Notes under the pieces: model-generated | Database searches by the model: none | Seen by the model: the letters and a program-made list of their open reading frames with translations, nothing else | What the model was told of the DNA's origin: nothing | Shown: positions 3,903 through 44,093 of the stretch, piece by piece | How positions within the stretch are numbered: position 1 is the first letter of the stretch | Layout: each line of letters starts with the position of its first letter | Source: Rikenellaceae bacterium | GTDB lineage: Bacteria; Bacteroidota; Bacteroidia; Bacteroidales; Rikenellaceae | Direction of reading: 5' to 3' | Assembly (NCBI GenBank): GCA_015060075.1 | Contig: SUZE01000001.1 | Span: 62,001 to 126,000, forward strand | DNA length: 64,000 nt | Program-made: the position numbers and the translations under genes

Positions 3903-5147
3903 TTAGTTGTATTTTATCGCCTCGGCGACCTTTATGCGCCCGACAATGGCGGTGGCGAGGTACATAACTGCGATAATTACAGTTGCAAAAAGTATATCTG
4001 TCGCTACTATCCAACCTGCACCGAGCGATACAGGTACTTCCGACAAGAAATATCCGCTTTCGTCTAATTTTATGAGGTGCAGATACTTCTGTGCCAATAA
4101 TAATCCCAACGCCAAAATGTTGCCTATGACTATGCCTACTGCTATAATCTGTGCGGCACGATAGGTGAATATACGGCGTATGGTGCTGTTCTGCATGCCG
4201 AGTGATTTGAGTGTTCCGACCATGCGGGTACGCTCCAAAACAAGGATTAACAGCGCTGTTGCCATATTGAAGATGGCAACAATGAGCATTATGGTCAATA
4301 TCACCGTAGCATTTACATCGTGCGTTTCGAGCCAACCGAAGATGTCGGCATGTCTATCGTGTGAACTCACCGCTGCAAGGCTCTCTTCGCCCTCGTACTC
4401 ACGCATCAATCGCAGATTGATAATATCGGCGCTCTGCTCGGCAATCTCGCTGTCGTACAGACGGCAGGCGTAACCCGAAATCTGTGTCGGCTCCCAATTG
4501 TTTAATTTCTGCACATTGCGGATATCGGTCAGCGCCAACTCTGCCCCCGTTTCGCCCAATGCCGAACGGTATATTCCGCACACCTTGAATACCTCACGGC
4601 GAGGTGTGTCGCCTTCCAAAAGGAGTAATTCGATGCGGTCGTTACATTCGGCACCTATTTTTGTTGAAATACTCTTTGACAGCAGAACTTCTTTGCGCCT
4701 TGAATCCTCGAAGCGAGGAAGTATGCCCTCCTCCAAACGCTCGGCAAAAAGGGATAAGTCGGCCTCTTTGTCAATGCCTTTTAGTGCGATACCCATTGCC
4801 CCATCTTCGCCACGAGCAACACAACTACGCAGTGCATAACGCTCAGCATGAGCGATGTTTCCTGTTGTTGTAATGATTGAGCGCAATGGCTCGTTATCGT
4901 TTATGGGATGGAGTCCGGGCTGTCGCTCTCCGTATGGGTTGGAGATGGTAATATCGGACATACTACCCGATACAAGAGCCGAAATCTGCTCCTTAAAGCC
5001 GAATATCACCGACAGTGTGATTATCACTACGGCAATACTTACCGCCACAGTAGCCGTAGCAATACGCACCATCATATTTTGTGATGATGTACCACGCATG
5101 GCAATATGTCGGGCAAGGCTCTTCATTTGTTTTAGGCTATTAGCCAT
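3903..5147 (-). CDS. ABC transporter permease, FtsX/LolC-E-like
   Basis: 414 aa, N-terminal TM, periplasmic domain, C-terminal FtsX-like TM block (LERTRMVGTLKSLGMQNSTIRRIF). Confidence 0.8.
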   Translation of the reverse strand: MANSLKQMKSLARHIAMRGTSSQNMMVRIATATVAVSIAVVIITLSVIFGFKEQISALVSGSMSDITISNPYGERQPGLHPINDNEPLRSIITTTGNIAHAERYALRSCVARGEDGAMGIALKGIDKEADLSLFAERLEEGILPRFEDSRRKEVLLSKSISTKIGAECNDRIELLLLEGDTPRREVFKVCGIYRSALGETGAELALTDIRNVQKLNNWEPTQISGYACRLYDSEIAEQSADIINLRLMREYEGEESLAAVSSHDRHADIFGWLETHDVNATVILTIMLIVAIFNMATALLILVLERTRMVGTLKSLGMQNSTIRRIFTYRAAQIIAVGIVIGNILALGLLLAQKYLHLIKLDESGYFLSEVPVSLGAGWIVATDILFATVIIAVMYLATAIVGRIKVAEAIKYN

Positions 5148-5247
5148 TAGCCATTAGCCATTGGCTTTTGAGGATTATCAACTTTTTACTGTTAATTCTC
5201 AATTCTTAATTCTTAATTCTTAATTCTTAATTCTTAATTATTGAGTA

Positions 5248-5826: not shown

Positions 5827-6579
5827 ATGTTTCTGAATCTATTGCAAGCCTCATACGAGGGACAGAGTCATATCCTCTCGAATCTTACAACAAGTGAGGC
5901 GTTTTTTATGGTTATTATTGTCGGTATTGCGGGCTTTATCGTGCAGGCTCGTTTGCGCTCTGTGGTATCGAAATATTCTCAGGTACCAATGCCTGCCGGA
6001 TTGACTGGTGCCGAGATAGCCGAGAAGATGTTGCGAGAGAATGGCGTGCATGGTGTTACCGTTACCCATACGGGCGGATACCTTACCGACCACTTCAATC
6101 CGCAGACAATGACGGTAAATCTCTCTGACGATGTCTACTATGGTCGCTCAATTACGGCTGCCGCTATTGCGTGTCATGAGTGCGGACATGCTGTGCAACA
6201 TGCGCAGGGATATGCTCCGTTGCAGATGCGTTCAGCACTAGTTCCTCTTGTGAACTTCTCATCGCAAGCGGCATCATGGCTGATTATTATCGGACTTATT
6301 ATGACCGCTTCATCGGGTAGTCAGCTGATGTGCTGGATAGGTGTGGGTTTGATGTGCGTGTCGGCACTATTTTCGATTATAACCCTTCCCGTGGAGTACA
6401 ATGCTTCGGATAGGGCGTTGGAGTGGTTGCAGTCGAGTAGGTTGCTTGTTGGTGAGGATTTGGAGGGAGCGAAAATATCGCTCCGCTGGGCTGCTCGTAC
6501 ATACCTTGTAGCAGCATTGTCGGCTATCGCTTCAATACTCTATTATGTGGCACTTATCAATGGCAGAAGAAGAGATTAA
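5827..6579 (+). CDS. zinc metallopeptidase (YugP-like membrane family)
   Basis: 250 aa; HECGHAVQHAQGY zinc motif, TM segments. Confidence 0.85.
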   Translation: MFLNLLQASYEGQSHILSNLTTSEAFFMVIIVGIAGFIVQARLRSVVSKYSQVPMPAGLTGAEIAEKMLRENGVHGVTVTHTGGYLTDHFNPQTMTVNLSDDVYYGRSITAAAIACHECGHAVQHAQGYAPLQMRSALVPLVNFSSQAASWLIIIGLIMTASSGSQLMCWIGVGLMCVSALFSIITLPVEYNASDRALEWLQSSRLLVGEDLEGAKISLRWAARTYLVAALSAIASILYYVALINGRRRD

Positions 6580-6702
6580 AAATCGTTCTGATGAGTTCTT
6601 TTGCACGAGCGCGTCAGACGCTGAAATGCTCACATAGGTTTGCTATGCTCCGCTTTCATCGCCTAGCGCCACACAAAAATAATCTCATCATTGACGATTT
6701 TT
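6578..6702 (+). repeat. 3'-intergenic palindromic element, copy E1
   Basis: AAAATCGTTCTGATGAG...CTCACATAGGTTTGCTATGCTCCG...CTCATCATTGACGATTTTT. Confidence 0.75.
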
Positions 6703-6739
6703 CGAGGTTGGAATAGAAAAACAAAAAAACAAAAATAAT

Positions 6740-8185: not shown

Positions 8186-8195
8186 AAAATCGTAA

Positions 8196-8302
8196 AAATG
8201 AGACCAATGAGACTGATAAGACCAATGAGACTAATGGGTAATGTGGCTTTTGAGCGCACCCATTGGTCTCATTTGTCCCATAGGTCCCATTTCTCTTATT
8301 TC
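8196..8302. repeat. inverted array of GAGACCAATGAGAC / CCCATTGGTCTCATT words
   Basis: AGACCAATGAGACTAATGGG on the left pairs with CCCATTGGTCTCATTTGTCCC on the right. Confidence 0.65.
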
Positions 8303-8315
8303 TGCGCTCCATCTA

Positions 8316-8967: not shown

Positions 8968-9091
8968 GAAAATCGTTCTGATGAGTTCTTTTTGCACGAA
9001 TCAGCGGACGCTGAAATGCTCACATACGCCAAGTATGCTGCGCTTTCATCGCCTTGCTTCGCACAAAAATAATCTCATCACCTCCGATTTT
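8968..9091 (+). repeat. 3'-intergenic palindromic element, copy E2
   Basis: AAAATCGTTCTGATGAG...CTCACATACGCCAAGTATGCTGCG...CTCATCACCTCCGATTTT. Confidence 0.75.
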
Positions 9092-9136
9092 GAATGTATG
9101 GAGATTAAGAGTAATAAAACAAAATAACATATATCT

Positions 9137-19406: not shown

Positions 19407-19569
19407 ACGGCAAAGTTACAATTTTACGCCAAAATGTCGCTCGTATGTCACAATTTTTGCCATCATTACGGTCAAAAAGCGTCAAAACGACACCCAAAAC
19501 CACTTGGCAGAAGATTTGTGGTCGTTGAGAGTCGAGAGCGAAAAACTAAAACTTTAAGCGCTACCTATT

Positions 19570-19640
19570 AAGCGAACGGAGTGAGCGCCCCCAGTAAGGG
19601 CGGAACGCCCGCCCCCAGTAACCCCCAGAAACTCTGCGCC
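19570..19640. repeat. hairpin/linker array with CCCCCAGTAA linkers
   Basis: AGCGAACGGAGTGAGCGC-CCCCAGTAA-GGGCGGAACGCCCG-CCCCCAGTAA-CCCCCAGAA. Confidence 0.55.
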
Positions 19641-22042: not shown

Positions 22043-22540
22043 ATGGATAGCGTAAAATTTTGTGCTGAGGAGCGTGCGCAGCATGCAAAAAAGTACTTCC
22101 AGGAGGGGTATAATTGTGCGCAGTCGGTAGCACTTGCGTATGCTGATATAACCTCACTTGACGAGGAGATGGTGGCTAAGATAACAGCATCATTCGGAGG
22201 CGGCATGGGACGTCTGCGTGAGGTGTGCGGTGCAGTTAGCGGAATGGCTTTCTTGGCAGGTTTTATATCACCTTGTCCTACCGCAGACAATGCTGTCGCA
22301 AAAAAAGCGAACTACGCTTTGGTACAAGATTTTGCGGAGAAGTTCCGAGAGCAGAATGGTGCGATAGTTTGTCGAACACTGCTCGGACTTGACCGCCCGA
22401 AAGATGAACCGACACCATCGGCTCGTACGGCAGAGTACTACAAGAAACGCCCTTGTGCCGATTTGGTCTACGATGCGGCGTTGATTGTTGGCAAGTACCT
22501 CGCAAACGGAAAACGGAAAACGGAAAGCGGAAAACTATAA
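22043..22540 (+). CDS. C_GCAxxG_C_C-family putative redox protein
   Basis: YNCAQSVALAYA ... SFGGGMGRLREVCGAVSGMAFLAGF. Confidence 0.8.
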   Translation: MDSVKFCAEERAQHAKKYFQEGYNCAQSVALAYADITSLDEEMVAKITASFGGGMGRLREVCGAVSGMAFLAGFISPCPTADNAVAKKANYALVQDFAEKFREQNGAIVCRTLLGLDRPKDEPTPSARTAEYYKKRPCADLVYDAALIVGKYLANGKRKTESGKL

Positions 22541-37007: not shown

Positions 37008-37156
37008 ATGGCGCCGCAGTCTTGCGACTACTTTATGGCGGCGGGCTTTCAGCCCTTTATGACGGCGCACCTGTGGTGCTTTACGGGGATTATAAAAAAC
37101 GCCATAGAACCGACTATGTCGGTGACGCCATGGAACGCCGCAGGCGTGACGATATA
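37008..37156. repeat. left terminal hairpin array flanking four-helix-bundle gene A
   Basis: Hairpins CGCAgtctTGCG, GGGCTttcAGCCC, GCACCtgtGGTGC, CCGACtatGTCGG, CGCCgcaGGCG separated by CTTTATGRCGG / CGCCATAGAA linkers. Confidence 0.75.
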
Positions 37157-37168
37157 AAAATAGCAATT

Positions 37169-37717
37169 ATGGATATCTCAAATCTTCATACAGGTAGTTA
37201 TCGTACATTTTTGGCTTATAGGAAGGCTGAAATTATCTACGATATGACATACTATTTTTGCGAAAAATATCTTCGCAAAGGAGATAGAACTATCGACCAA
37301 ATGGTACAAGCGGCTCGCTCTGGTAAGCAGAATATCATCGAAGGCAAGGAGGCAGCAAGAACATCTTACGAAACTCTCCTCAAATTGATGAATGTTGCAC
37401 GAGCGAGTTTGCAGGAGTTGCTCGCTGATTATGAAGACTATTTGAGGACACGACATCTGCGACAATGGGCATTGAACTCTGTTGAAGTCAAAGCAATGCG
37501 CAAACTCGGTCGCGAGCGTAAAGATTCGGACTACTTTCTCTCTTTGGCGCAGACTCGTAGCGATGAGGTTATAGCAAATATGGTTATTGTGCTTATTTGC
37601 CAAGAGGATGTATTACTCGACCGATACACGAAAAAGCAAGAAGAGAAATTTGTAAAAGAGGGCGGTTTTCGCGAAAAACTCACACGGGAACGACTTGCCT
37701 ATCGCAAGAGTAGATGA
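37169..37717 (+). CDS. four-helix-bundle protein with C-terminal suffix (23S rRNA IVP-like), paralog A
   Basis: 182 aa; YRKAEIIYDMTYYFCEKYLRKGDRTIDQMVQAARSGKQNIIEG; C-terminal GGFREKLTRERLAYR. Confidence 0.85.
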   Translation: MDISNLHTGSYRTFLAYRKAEIIYDMTYYFCEKYLRKGDRTIDQMVQAARSGKQNIIEGKEAARTSYETLLKLMNVARASLQELLADYEDYLRTRHLRQWALNSVEVKAMRKLGRERKDSDYFLSLAQTRSDEVIANMVIVLICQEDVLLDRYTKKQEEKFVKEGGFREKLTRERLAYRKSR

Positions 37718-37727
37718 TTAATGTCTT

Positions 37728-37809
37728 TCATAGAACCGACTATGTCGGTGACGCCATAGAAGGTGCTTGCACCTGACGCCATAAAGCAGCTGCAAGACTG
37801 CGCCGCCAA
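37728..37809. repeat. right terminal hairpin array flanking four-helix-bundle gene A (inverted relative to left)
   Basis: CCGACtatGTCGG-TGACGCCATAGAA-GGTGCttGCACC-TGACGCCATAAAG-cagctgcaagactgcgccgcc. Confidence 0.75.
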
Positions 37810-40437: not shown

Positions 40438-40674
40438 GGGGGTAGGGGAGATAGGGTTGCTGGGGGTTGCTGGGGTTTACTGGGGGGTACTGAGGGTACT
40501 GGGGGTACTGGGGTTTACTGGGGGTACTAGGGGTACTAGGGGTACTAGGGGTACTAGGGAATAAATGCTATATACTATATCGTATGTATAACCCTATAAC
40601 CCTCAGAATCCCCAGAATCCCCAGTTTCCCCAAAAAAACCATAACCCTCAGAGCCCTTAGTCCCCATAACCCCT
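40438..40674. repeat. G-rich (GGGGTACT)n array followed by C-rich (CCCCAGAAT)n array
   Basis: GGGGTACTA repeated 4x perfectly at 40523-40559, preceded by GGGGTTTACT variants; 40590-40674 carries CCCCAGAATCCCCAG / CCATAACCC words. Confidence 0.8.
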
Positions 40675-40747
40675 AAAAAATATAAAAAACCACAAAAAAC
40701 CTCCCGAAAAGTTGCAGAGTCTCCGTATAATTTTTACATTTGTATTA

Positions 40748-41284
40748 ATGAATAATATTGGTCCACATAGCACGCTCAAGGGATATCGCAAGGCAGAGAT
40801 TATCTACGATATGACCTACTATTTTTGTGAAAAATATCTTCGCAAAGGTGACCGTACCATAGACCAAATGGTGCAAGCGGCTCGTTCGGGCAAGCAGAAT
40901 ATCATCGAGGGTATGGCGGTTGGTGAAACCTCGAAGGAGATGTTGTTGAAATTACTATATGTGGCGAAAGGCAGTTTGCAAGAGTTGCTTGCTGACTATC
41001 AAGACTATTTGCGTGTGCGAAATCTGCGACAGTGGGAGTCGAACTCGCTCGAAGTTGAGGCTATGCGTAGGTTGGGAAAAGAACACGATGATAGTGGCTA
41101 CTTTCTATCACTGGCGGAGAGCCGTAACGATGAGGTTATTGCTAATATGGTAATAGTGCTGATACACCAAGCAGATGTGCTGATTGAACGCTATTATAAT
41201 TGGCATTACAATAAATTTTTGGAGCAGGGCGGTTTTCGTGAAAAACTGACACGAGAGCGATTGGCTCATCGTCAAAACGAGTAA
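40748..41284 (+). CDS. four-helix-bundle protein with C-terminal suffix, paralog B
   Basis: 178 aa; same YRKAEIIYDMTYYFCEKYLRKGDRTIDQMVQAARSGKQNIIEG core as 37169-37717, diverged elsewhere. Confidence 0.85.
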   Translation: MNNIGPHSTLKGYRKAEIIYDMTYYFCEKYLRKGDRTIDQMVQAARSGKQNIIEGMAVGETSKEMLLKLLYVAKGSLQELLADYQDYLRVRNLRQWESNSLEVEAMRRLGKEHDDSGYFLSLAESRNDEVIANMVIVLIHQADVLIERYYNWHYNKFLEQGGFREKLTRERLAHRQNE

Positions 41285-41295
41285 ATTATATCGCC

Positions 41296-41328
41296 TCAGA
41301 ATCCCCAGAACCCATAGAAACCCCATTT
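41296..41328. repeat. right-flank CCCCAGAA words after four-helix-bundle gene B
   Basis: CTCAGAATCCCCAGAACCCATAGAAACCCC. Confidence 0.55.
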
Positions 41329-43616: not shown

Positions 43617-43741
43617 AAACACATTTTAAGGGGAAATTGCTTCCTTGTCTTCAAAAAATGAGATGGTTACATACGCCTTAGTATGCGCCCATCTCATTTT
43701 TCTTTGACGGCGTTGCACTTTCCTCCTTAAAATGAGTTTTT
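43616..43741 (+). repeat. 3'-intergenic palindromic element, copy E9
   Basis: AAAACACATTTTAAGGGGAAATTGC...GTTACATACGCCTTAGTATGCGCCC...GCACTTTCCTCCTTAAAATGAG. Confidence 0.7.
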
Positions 43742-43962
43742 TGGGGTAGTGGTATGCTACGGAACTCGCTTTCTTGTTTGGCACAAAATTTCCTCGCTCA
43801 TAAACGATTTTTTTGCTTTTGGGTTGCACTTTCCTCCTTAAAATGAGTTTTTTGGGGTAGTGGTATGCTACGGAACTCGCTTTCTTGTTTGGCACAAAAT
43901 TTCCTCGCTCATAAACGATTTTTTTGCTTTTGGGTTGCACTTTCCTCCTTAAAATGAGTTTT
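43712..43962. repeat. 111-bp tandem repeat, two full copies plus a partial third
   Basis: GTTGCACTTTCCTCCTTAAAATGAG starts at 43712, 43823 and 43934; two copies near-identical. Confidence 0.95.
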
Positions 43963-44093
43963 TGTAGGGTAATTCTTCGTTTCTCTCATATCGTCTGTTT
44001 TTGAAAAGTTTTCCCACTACAAGCGAAAACCGAAAAACAAAAGTTTTCCGTTTTCCGCTTTCCGCTTTCCGTTTATTTTTCTATCTTTGTATT

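Follow-up and report, generated by a model that had tools for sequence, protein, structure and literature searches.

The hairpin-array unit at 37009–37808 of the window – by which we mean the whole 64,000-nucleotide stretch of DNA analysed here – is a real feature and typical of its class, and that class appears to be undescribed. We lean, by a modest degree, towards placing the locus in a broad class of small genetic elements, in which a gene of the S23/IVP type lies between, and coevolves with, clade-specific inverted arrays of short repeats, which a multimer of its protein reads and helps to spread. The protein family and the inverted ends are already known from rRNA intervening sequences (IVSs); we found no open-licence paper that ties S23/IVP-type proteins to such repeat arrays.

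The focal unit sits between upp and a lipoprotein gene, outside rRNA, and consists of an ORF flanked on both sides by hairpin arrays:

37009..37150, + strand: left hairpin array
37009..37045, + strand: left terminal inverted repeat, complementary to 37772–37808 at 31 of 37 positions
37169..37717, + strand: gene for a 182-aa four-helix-bundle protein (TIGR02436 with a TIGR04258 suffix)
37727..37808, + strand: right hairpin array
37772..37808, − strand: right terminal inverted repeat, matching 37009–37045 at 31 of 37 positions

The terminal inverted repeats are present at the place and size that the first-pass annotation had given them, and their inverted score of 44 was reached by one of 4000 placements of the same geometry in the window, a draw that may overlap the focal unit itself. 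All the hairpins that it had named were located (GGGCTttcAGCCC, GCACCtgtGGTGC, CCGACtatGTCGG, CGCCgcaGGCG and GGTGCttGCACC). The linker between them, which it had described as constant, does recur but differs between the two halves, reading TTTATGGCGGC or TTTATGACGGC in the first and TGACGCCATRGAA in the second. In the fold of the left array, the linkers TTTATGGCG and CGCCATAGA are paired and the hairpins project, with only a modest gain over shuffled sequences (z −2.0). The left array is also found without the gene elsewhere in the genome that holds the window, G000 (G000:C40:11453–11595, with a partial copy at G000:C4:19943–20005). The right array is missing from the orthologous unit in the sister genome G005, so an arm can be altered while the gene stays in place.

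The 182-aa ORF is the only plausible gene inside the unit and encodes, as first read, a four-helix bundle rather than a transposase; neither the ORF list nor the Pfam and NCBIfam profiles place any transposase within these boundaries. By the same profiles, the protein belongs to the S23/IVP family, that of rRNA intervening sequences: it scores above the cut-off of TIGR02436 and, with an E-value of 9.7e-6, under the curated cut-off of PF05635 (the latter mentioned in PMC10053308). Its AlphaFold2 model is all-helical (pLDDT 90), and the only convincing solved relatives of that model are XCC0516 (2gsc) and BT_0352 (2rld), each deposited with several chains – five in 2gsc. The only Pfam and NCBIfam families matched are 23S_rRNA_IVP and four-helix-bundle ones, with no HUH (Y1) transposase domain, and profile and fold searches recognised no catalytic domain. 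The S23/IVP-type protein of these units is under purifying selection, with dN/dS of 0.03–0.12 in related protein pairs whose dS is unsaturated; dS of the focal pair is saturated.

A second unit, spanning 40454–41325, was missed by the first-pass annotation, as were the ORF-less arrays of the window and the generality of the pattern. These additional features are the following:

5139..5239, unstranded: heptamer arrays without an ORF, TTAGCCA and AATTCTT, whose cognate genes lie in the same genome at C37:7384 and C37:62102
8195..8310, unstranded: ORF-less inverted array AATGAGACC...GGTCTCATT, of the repeat type of the C23 unit (L004/L050)
19557..19640, unstranded: ORF-less hairpin array with CCCCAGTAA linkers, the linker type of the second unit
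22504..22535, unstranded: ORF-less AAACGGA heptamer array, of a family without a recognised cognate gene
40454..40680, + strand: left arrays of the second unit, GGGGTACTGGG on one side and CCCCAGAATCCCC on the other
40748..41284, + strand: gene of the second unit, for a 178-aa suffix-type four-helix bundle about 72% identical to the focal protein
41295..41325, + strand: right array of the second unit, CCTCAGAATCCCCAGAACCC

The second-unit gene (L046, at 40748) and its counterpart in G005 (L049, on C53) encode orthologous proteins, 84% identical, and share a common fusA junction. Their arrays differ (GGGGTACTG versus GGGATAATA), and distant arrays matching those of L049 number six in G005 versus one in G000. 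Each of three ORF-less sites likewise differs in G005: 5139–5239 bears different array families there, the array at 19557–19640 is replaced by other arrays, and the junction of 8195–8310 – which in the window folds as a single long stem (z −6.2) – is taken by a different dispersed element. This last element, of about 125 bp (AAATCGTTCTGATGAGTTCTTTTTGCAC...) and of another family, also occurs in the window at 6577–6721 and 8969–9095, and at least 20 copies are present in G005. The AAACGGA/GTTTTCC heptamers make up the largest family in the sampled genome (22504–22535, 44043–44074 and about 30 places in sampled G000), and no cognate four-helix-bundle gene was recognised for them. The window also carries, at 43712–43971, a 111-bp tandem repeat in 2.3 copies with a 98% match.

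The same arrangement is found well beyond the window. G000 has seven such genes, four of the suffix type and three of the short type, and every one of them is flanked by an array of its own (TGACGCCATARAA with hairpins; GGGGTACTGG; AATGGCATTG with hairpins; AATGAGACT; TTAGCCA; AGACGAG; AATTGAG). About 100 other genes were sampled from Bacteroidota, cyanobacterial plasmids and one Gemmatimonadota; most are flanked by short-repeat arrays. As a rule these arrays face each other as inverted copies on the two sides of the gene and are private to that gene or to its close relatives; the arrangement was seen both at other Bacteroidales suffix-type genes and at short-type genes of other Bacteroidota. 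The earlier picture of a repeat-associated unit, RAYT/REP-like in layout and built on an IVP-like four-helix bundle, holds for the inverted arrays and for the clade-linked dispersed repeats. The hairpins, then put forward as a possible substrate, are non-essential to the class: plain repeats of 7 to 10 nt form most of its arrays, and the recurring element of hairpin-type arrays is the linker.

Inverted left/right similarity was scored in units with both flanks against the 95th percentile of 142 control genes. That threshold is exceeded by 63% of suffix-type and 65% of short-type units (p 4e-12 and 6e-19, values that are optimistic, like the others reported here, because units and genomes are not phylogenetically independent), while about one third of units fail. 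Median similarity is 29 for suffix-type and 23 for short-type units, against 15 for controls, and either the inverted or the periodicity test is passed by 88% and 69%, respectively, versus 7.7% of controls. Short-type arms are inverted more often than direct (65% versus 19% above their nulls). Plasmid units, mostly cyanobacterial, exceed the inverted threshold in 9 of 14 cases (p 3e-9); one cyanobacterial plasmid gene, L247, is flanked by long direct heptamer arrays. Searches of a phage collection and of Xanthomonas plasmids found no such genes, and Rfam gave only two matches, both far below gathering scores.

The array period depends on the presence of the suffix domain. It is 9–10 nt in all 40 suffix-type flanks with clear periodicity and 6–8 nt in all 16 such short-type flanks (40/0 against 0/16, p 2.4e-14). 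Among suffix-type units in unshared contexts, the more similar the proteins, the more similar the arrays tend to be (Mantel p ≤ 0.0033); the corresponding test for short-type units was not significant.

Four short-type units (L084, L086, L104 and L103) apparently interrupt another coding sequence, both halves of which are readable on either side; it may be a methylase or restriction-modification gene. On cyanobacterial plasmids, the S23-type genes L242, L247, L248 and L238 are placed variously between cas6 and cas4, between cas10/cmr2 and cmr3, and between ribonucleotide reductase genes; S23-type genes in cas loci have been reported before (PMC3936711).

Units come and go as whole array-ORF-array blocks at gene junctions. 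A unit separates ddl from a DUF3109 gene in one genome (G031), and in ten or so relatives these two genes touch or overlap, or are at most about 30 nt apart; a second site in G031 holds a related, frameshifted copy of this unit, with 3′ homology that stops at the array end. The nuoC-nuoD junction is closed (2–60 nt) in about 14 genomes of one family and filled by an array-ORF-array unit of 437–578 nt in eight genomes of the same family. In four genomes it shows gaps of 114–242 nt, some with arrays but without an intact ORF; one old insertion followed by losses explains this pattern as well as repeated insertion does. Because closed junctions lack arrays, the arrays came with the gene. Occupied junctions in the first sample comprised two nuoC-nuoD, two sucB/odhB-lpd and four fadB-fadA, and comparison of filled and empty sites by eye identified no target-site duplication. 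The empty sites foreseen for a mobile unit do, then, exist for relatives of the focal unit (ddl-DUF3109 and nuoC-nuoD), but at the focal site itself the regions downstream of upp are too divergent for a clean comparison.

Cognate arrays are dispersed genome-wide without the gene, and they turn over between sister species. Focal array DNA was found in 2 of 37 genomes of the genus, G000 and G005, precisely the two that carry the cognate protein clade (proteins 81–100% identical), and it is absent from genomes of the genus with only other suffix-type clades; repeat and clade co-occur as anticipated, albeit in just two positives that are sister genomes. Arrays of CTCTCGT, cognate to the C42 gene, gave 64 pattern hits in G000 (overlaps included), 21 in G005 and none in the 35 others; their cognate protein is present in G000 and was not found in the 85%-complete G005 assembly. 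G000 was sampled in stretches, and in the 458 kb used for distant-array matching its three short-type genes have flanks that match, respectively, 11, 11 and 13 arrays located elsewhere, compared with at most two for each of 49 foreign short-type units. Under a strict threshold, a match to a unit of the same genome was obtained for 41 of 157 solo arrays in G000 and for 12 of 128 in G005. The tandem-repeat scan is blind to hairpin-type arrays, so that counts of these come from DNA searches only. Solo arrays reach about 33 per 100 kb in the focal genus and 0–3 per 100 kb in four other Bacteroidota genomes with 9–15 such genes; the notion that arrays abound wherever these genes occur was accordingly rejected, and having the protein is not enough to yield many arrays.

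Taken as a whole, the data support spread and turnover of units and arrays in step with the protein clade. A mechanism that would produce this begins with a protein that probably forms a multimer, as the several chains of its solved relatives suggest, with successive repeats contacted by successive protomers, some four to five per arm. Arms hold a median of 4.4 heptamers, about what a single pentamer per array would call for, a correspondence that is only suggestive. The repeats might be read as single-stranded DNA, as RNA or as duplex; the arms would serve as recognition ends, and the protein, with host enzymes, would place new copies of arrays and of entire units elsewhere. Such a pairing would resemble that of RAYT proteins with REP sequences, although the protein is unrelated and has no recognised catalytic domain.

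The main rival, which we consider rather unlikely, is an IVS-like RNA element: inverted arrays would pair in the transcript, RNase III would cut the stem and the unit would leave the mRNA, with the protein protecting or processing RNA and spread being incidental or RNA-mediated. The protein family is indeed that of IVS ORFs, known with 28-bp terminal inverted repeats and RNase III excision (PMC4990558), and the arms are complementary in many units. It is the operon placement of short-type units that keeps this route in contention, since both neighbours are co-directional in 42 of 52, against 154 of 277 controls (56%; p 6e-4), with median gaps to the neighbours of 58 and 19 nt. Suffix-type units, however, are co-directional on both sides in only 22 of 44; the arms of L247, L035 and L072 are direct rather than inverted; and an inverted partner is missing for most solo heptamer arrays, with 12% lying above the 95th percentile of the null, so that the idea of solo arrays as usually inverted pairs was rejected for most of them.

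Less probable again is a regulatory network, in which the protein would regulate by binding RNA or DNA and the arrays, in its own leader and at dispersed intergenic sites, would be operators rather than mobile ends. The uniform arm size of about 4–5 heptamers, the intergenic position of the arrays and the strong constraint on the protein would all suit a regulator. Orthologous intergenic sites of the two sister species G000 and G005, however, carry different, unrelated array families, a difference that is hard to reconcile with conserved regulation, and junctions differ in the presence of entire units. Arrays are common in the focal genus whatever gene adjoins them, yet the passenger reading, in which slippage-born arrays act as insertion hot spots where four-helix-bundle genes land with no functional tie, is the least probable of the three and is disfavoured by closed junctions free of arrays, by the excess of inverted over direct short-type arms, by an array period set by protein type and by dispersed arrays that match own flanks far more than foreign ones.

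Spread by a protein that reads its own repeat is the reading we modestly favour, and a broader version of it is, in our estimate, slightly short of an even prospect: that S23/IVP bundles are widespread, transposase-free repeat propagators, each reading a private 7- to 10-nt array, that they lie behind a large part of the heptamer and nonamer arrays still unexplained in Bacteroidota, Cyanobacteria and perhaps Xanthomonas, and that rRNA intervening sequences are a special case of them. Two old puzzles – the role of the S23/IVP protein and the origin of short intergenic tandem arrays – seem to be one, and the link gives each of them a partner that can be tested. Should the protein indeed read its own repeat, the private families would amount to many natural protein–sequence pairs, from which to learn the rules of nucleic-acid recognition by a protein that is all-helical and probably pentameric.

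Among known systems, Avd, the accessory protein of diversity-generating retroelements, is a nucleic-acid-binding relative, likewise a four-helix bundle and pentameric; the ORFs listed around the focal unit include no recognised reverse transcriptase or template/variable repeat. The BrickBuilt MITE of P. gingivalis, with its 23-nt repeats and IS5-like ends, was set aside as unrelated. The heptamer arrays, or STRRs, of cyanobacteria, Xanthomonas and Beggiatoaceae resemble the present arrays in being intergenic, heptameric and low in copy number within each array (about four copies in Xanthomonas; PMC4692102). They were published without a partner protein (PMC4692102, PMC4679880), whereas the arrays described here flank S23-type genes, the Xanthomonas arrays being compared by their published description. 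The 23S rRNA intervening sequences with an S23/IVP ORF have in common with our units the protein family and fold, the ORF between terminal inverted repeats and the scattered distribution, and PMC4990558 cites an early proposal that the IVS ORF has a mobile-element function (Ralph and McClelland 1993). Our units differ in lying between protein genes (upp-lipoprotein, ddl-DUF3109, nuoC-nuoD, fadB-fadA and sucB/odhB-lpd) rather than in rRNA, and in having tandem arrays as arms, with dispersed gene-less cognates. A parallel in layout is offered by REP/REPIN-RAYT systems, where a short repeat likewise stands in inverted orientation on the two sides of a gene, further copies populate intergenic DNA without the gene and the repeat family is tied to the protein clade. 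RAYTs, however, are HUH single-strand transposases; here the protein is a four-helix bundle without that domain, and its repeats, 7 to 10 nt long, are arranged in tandem and form hairpins in some families only.
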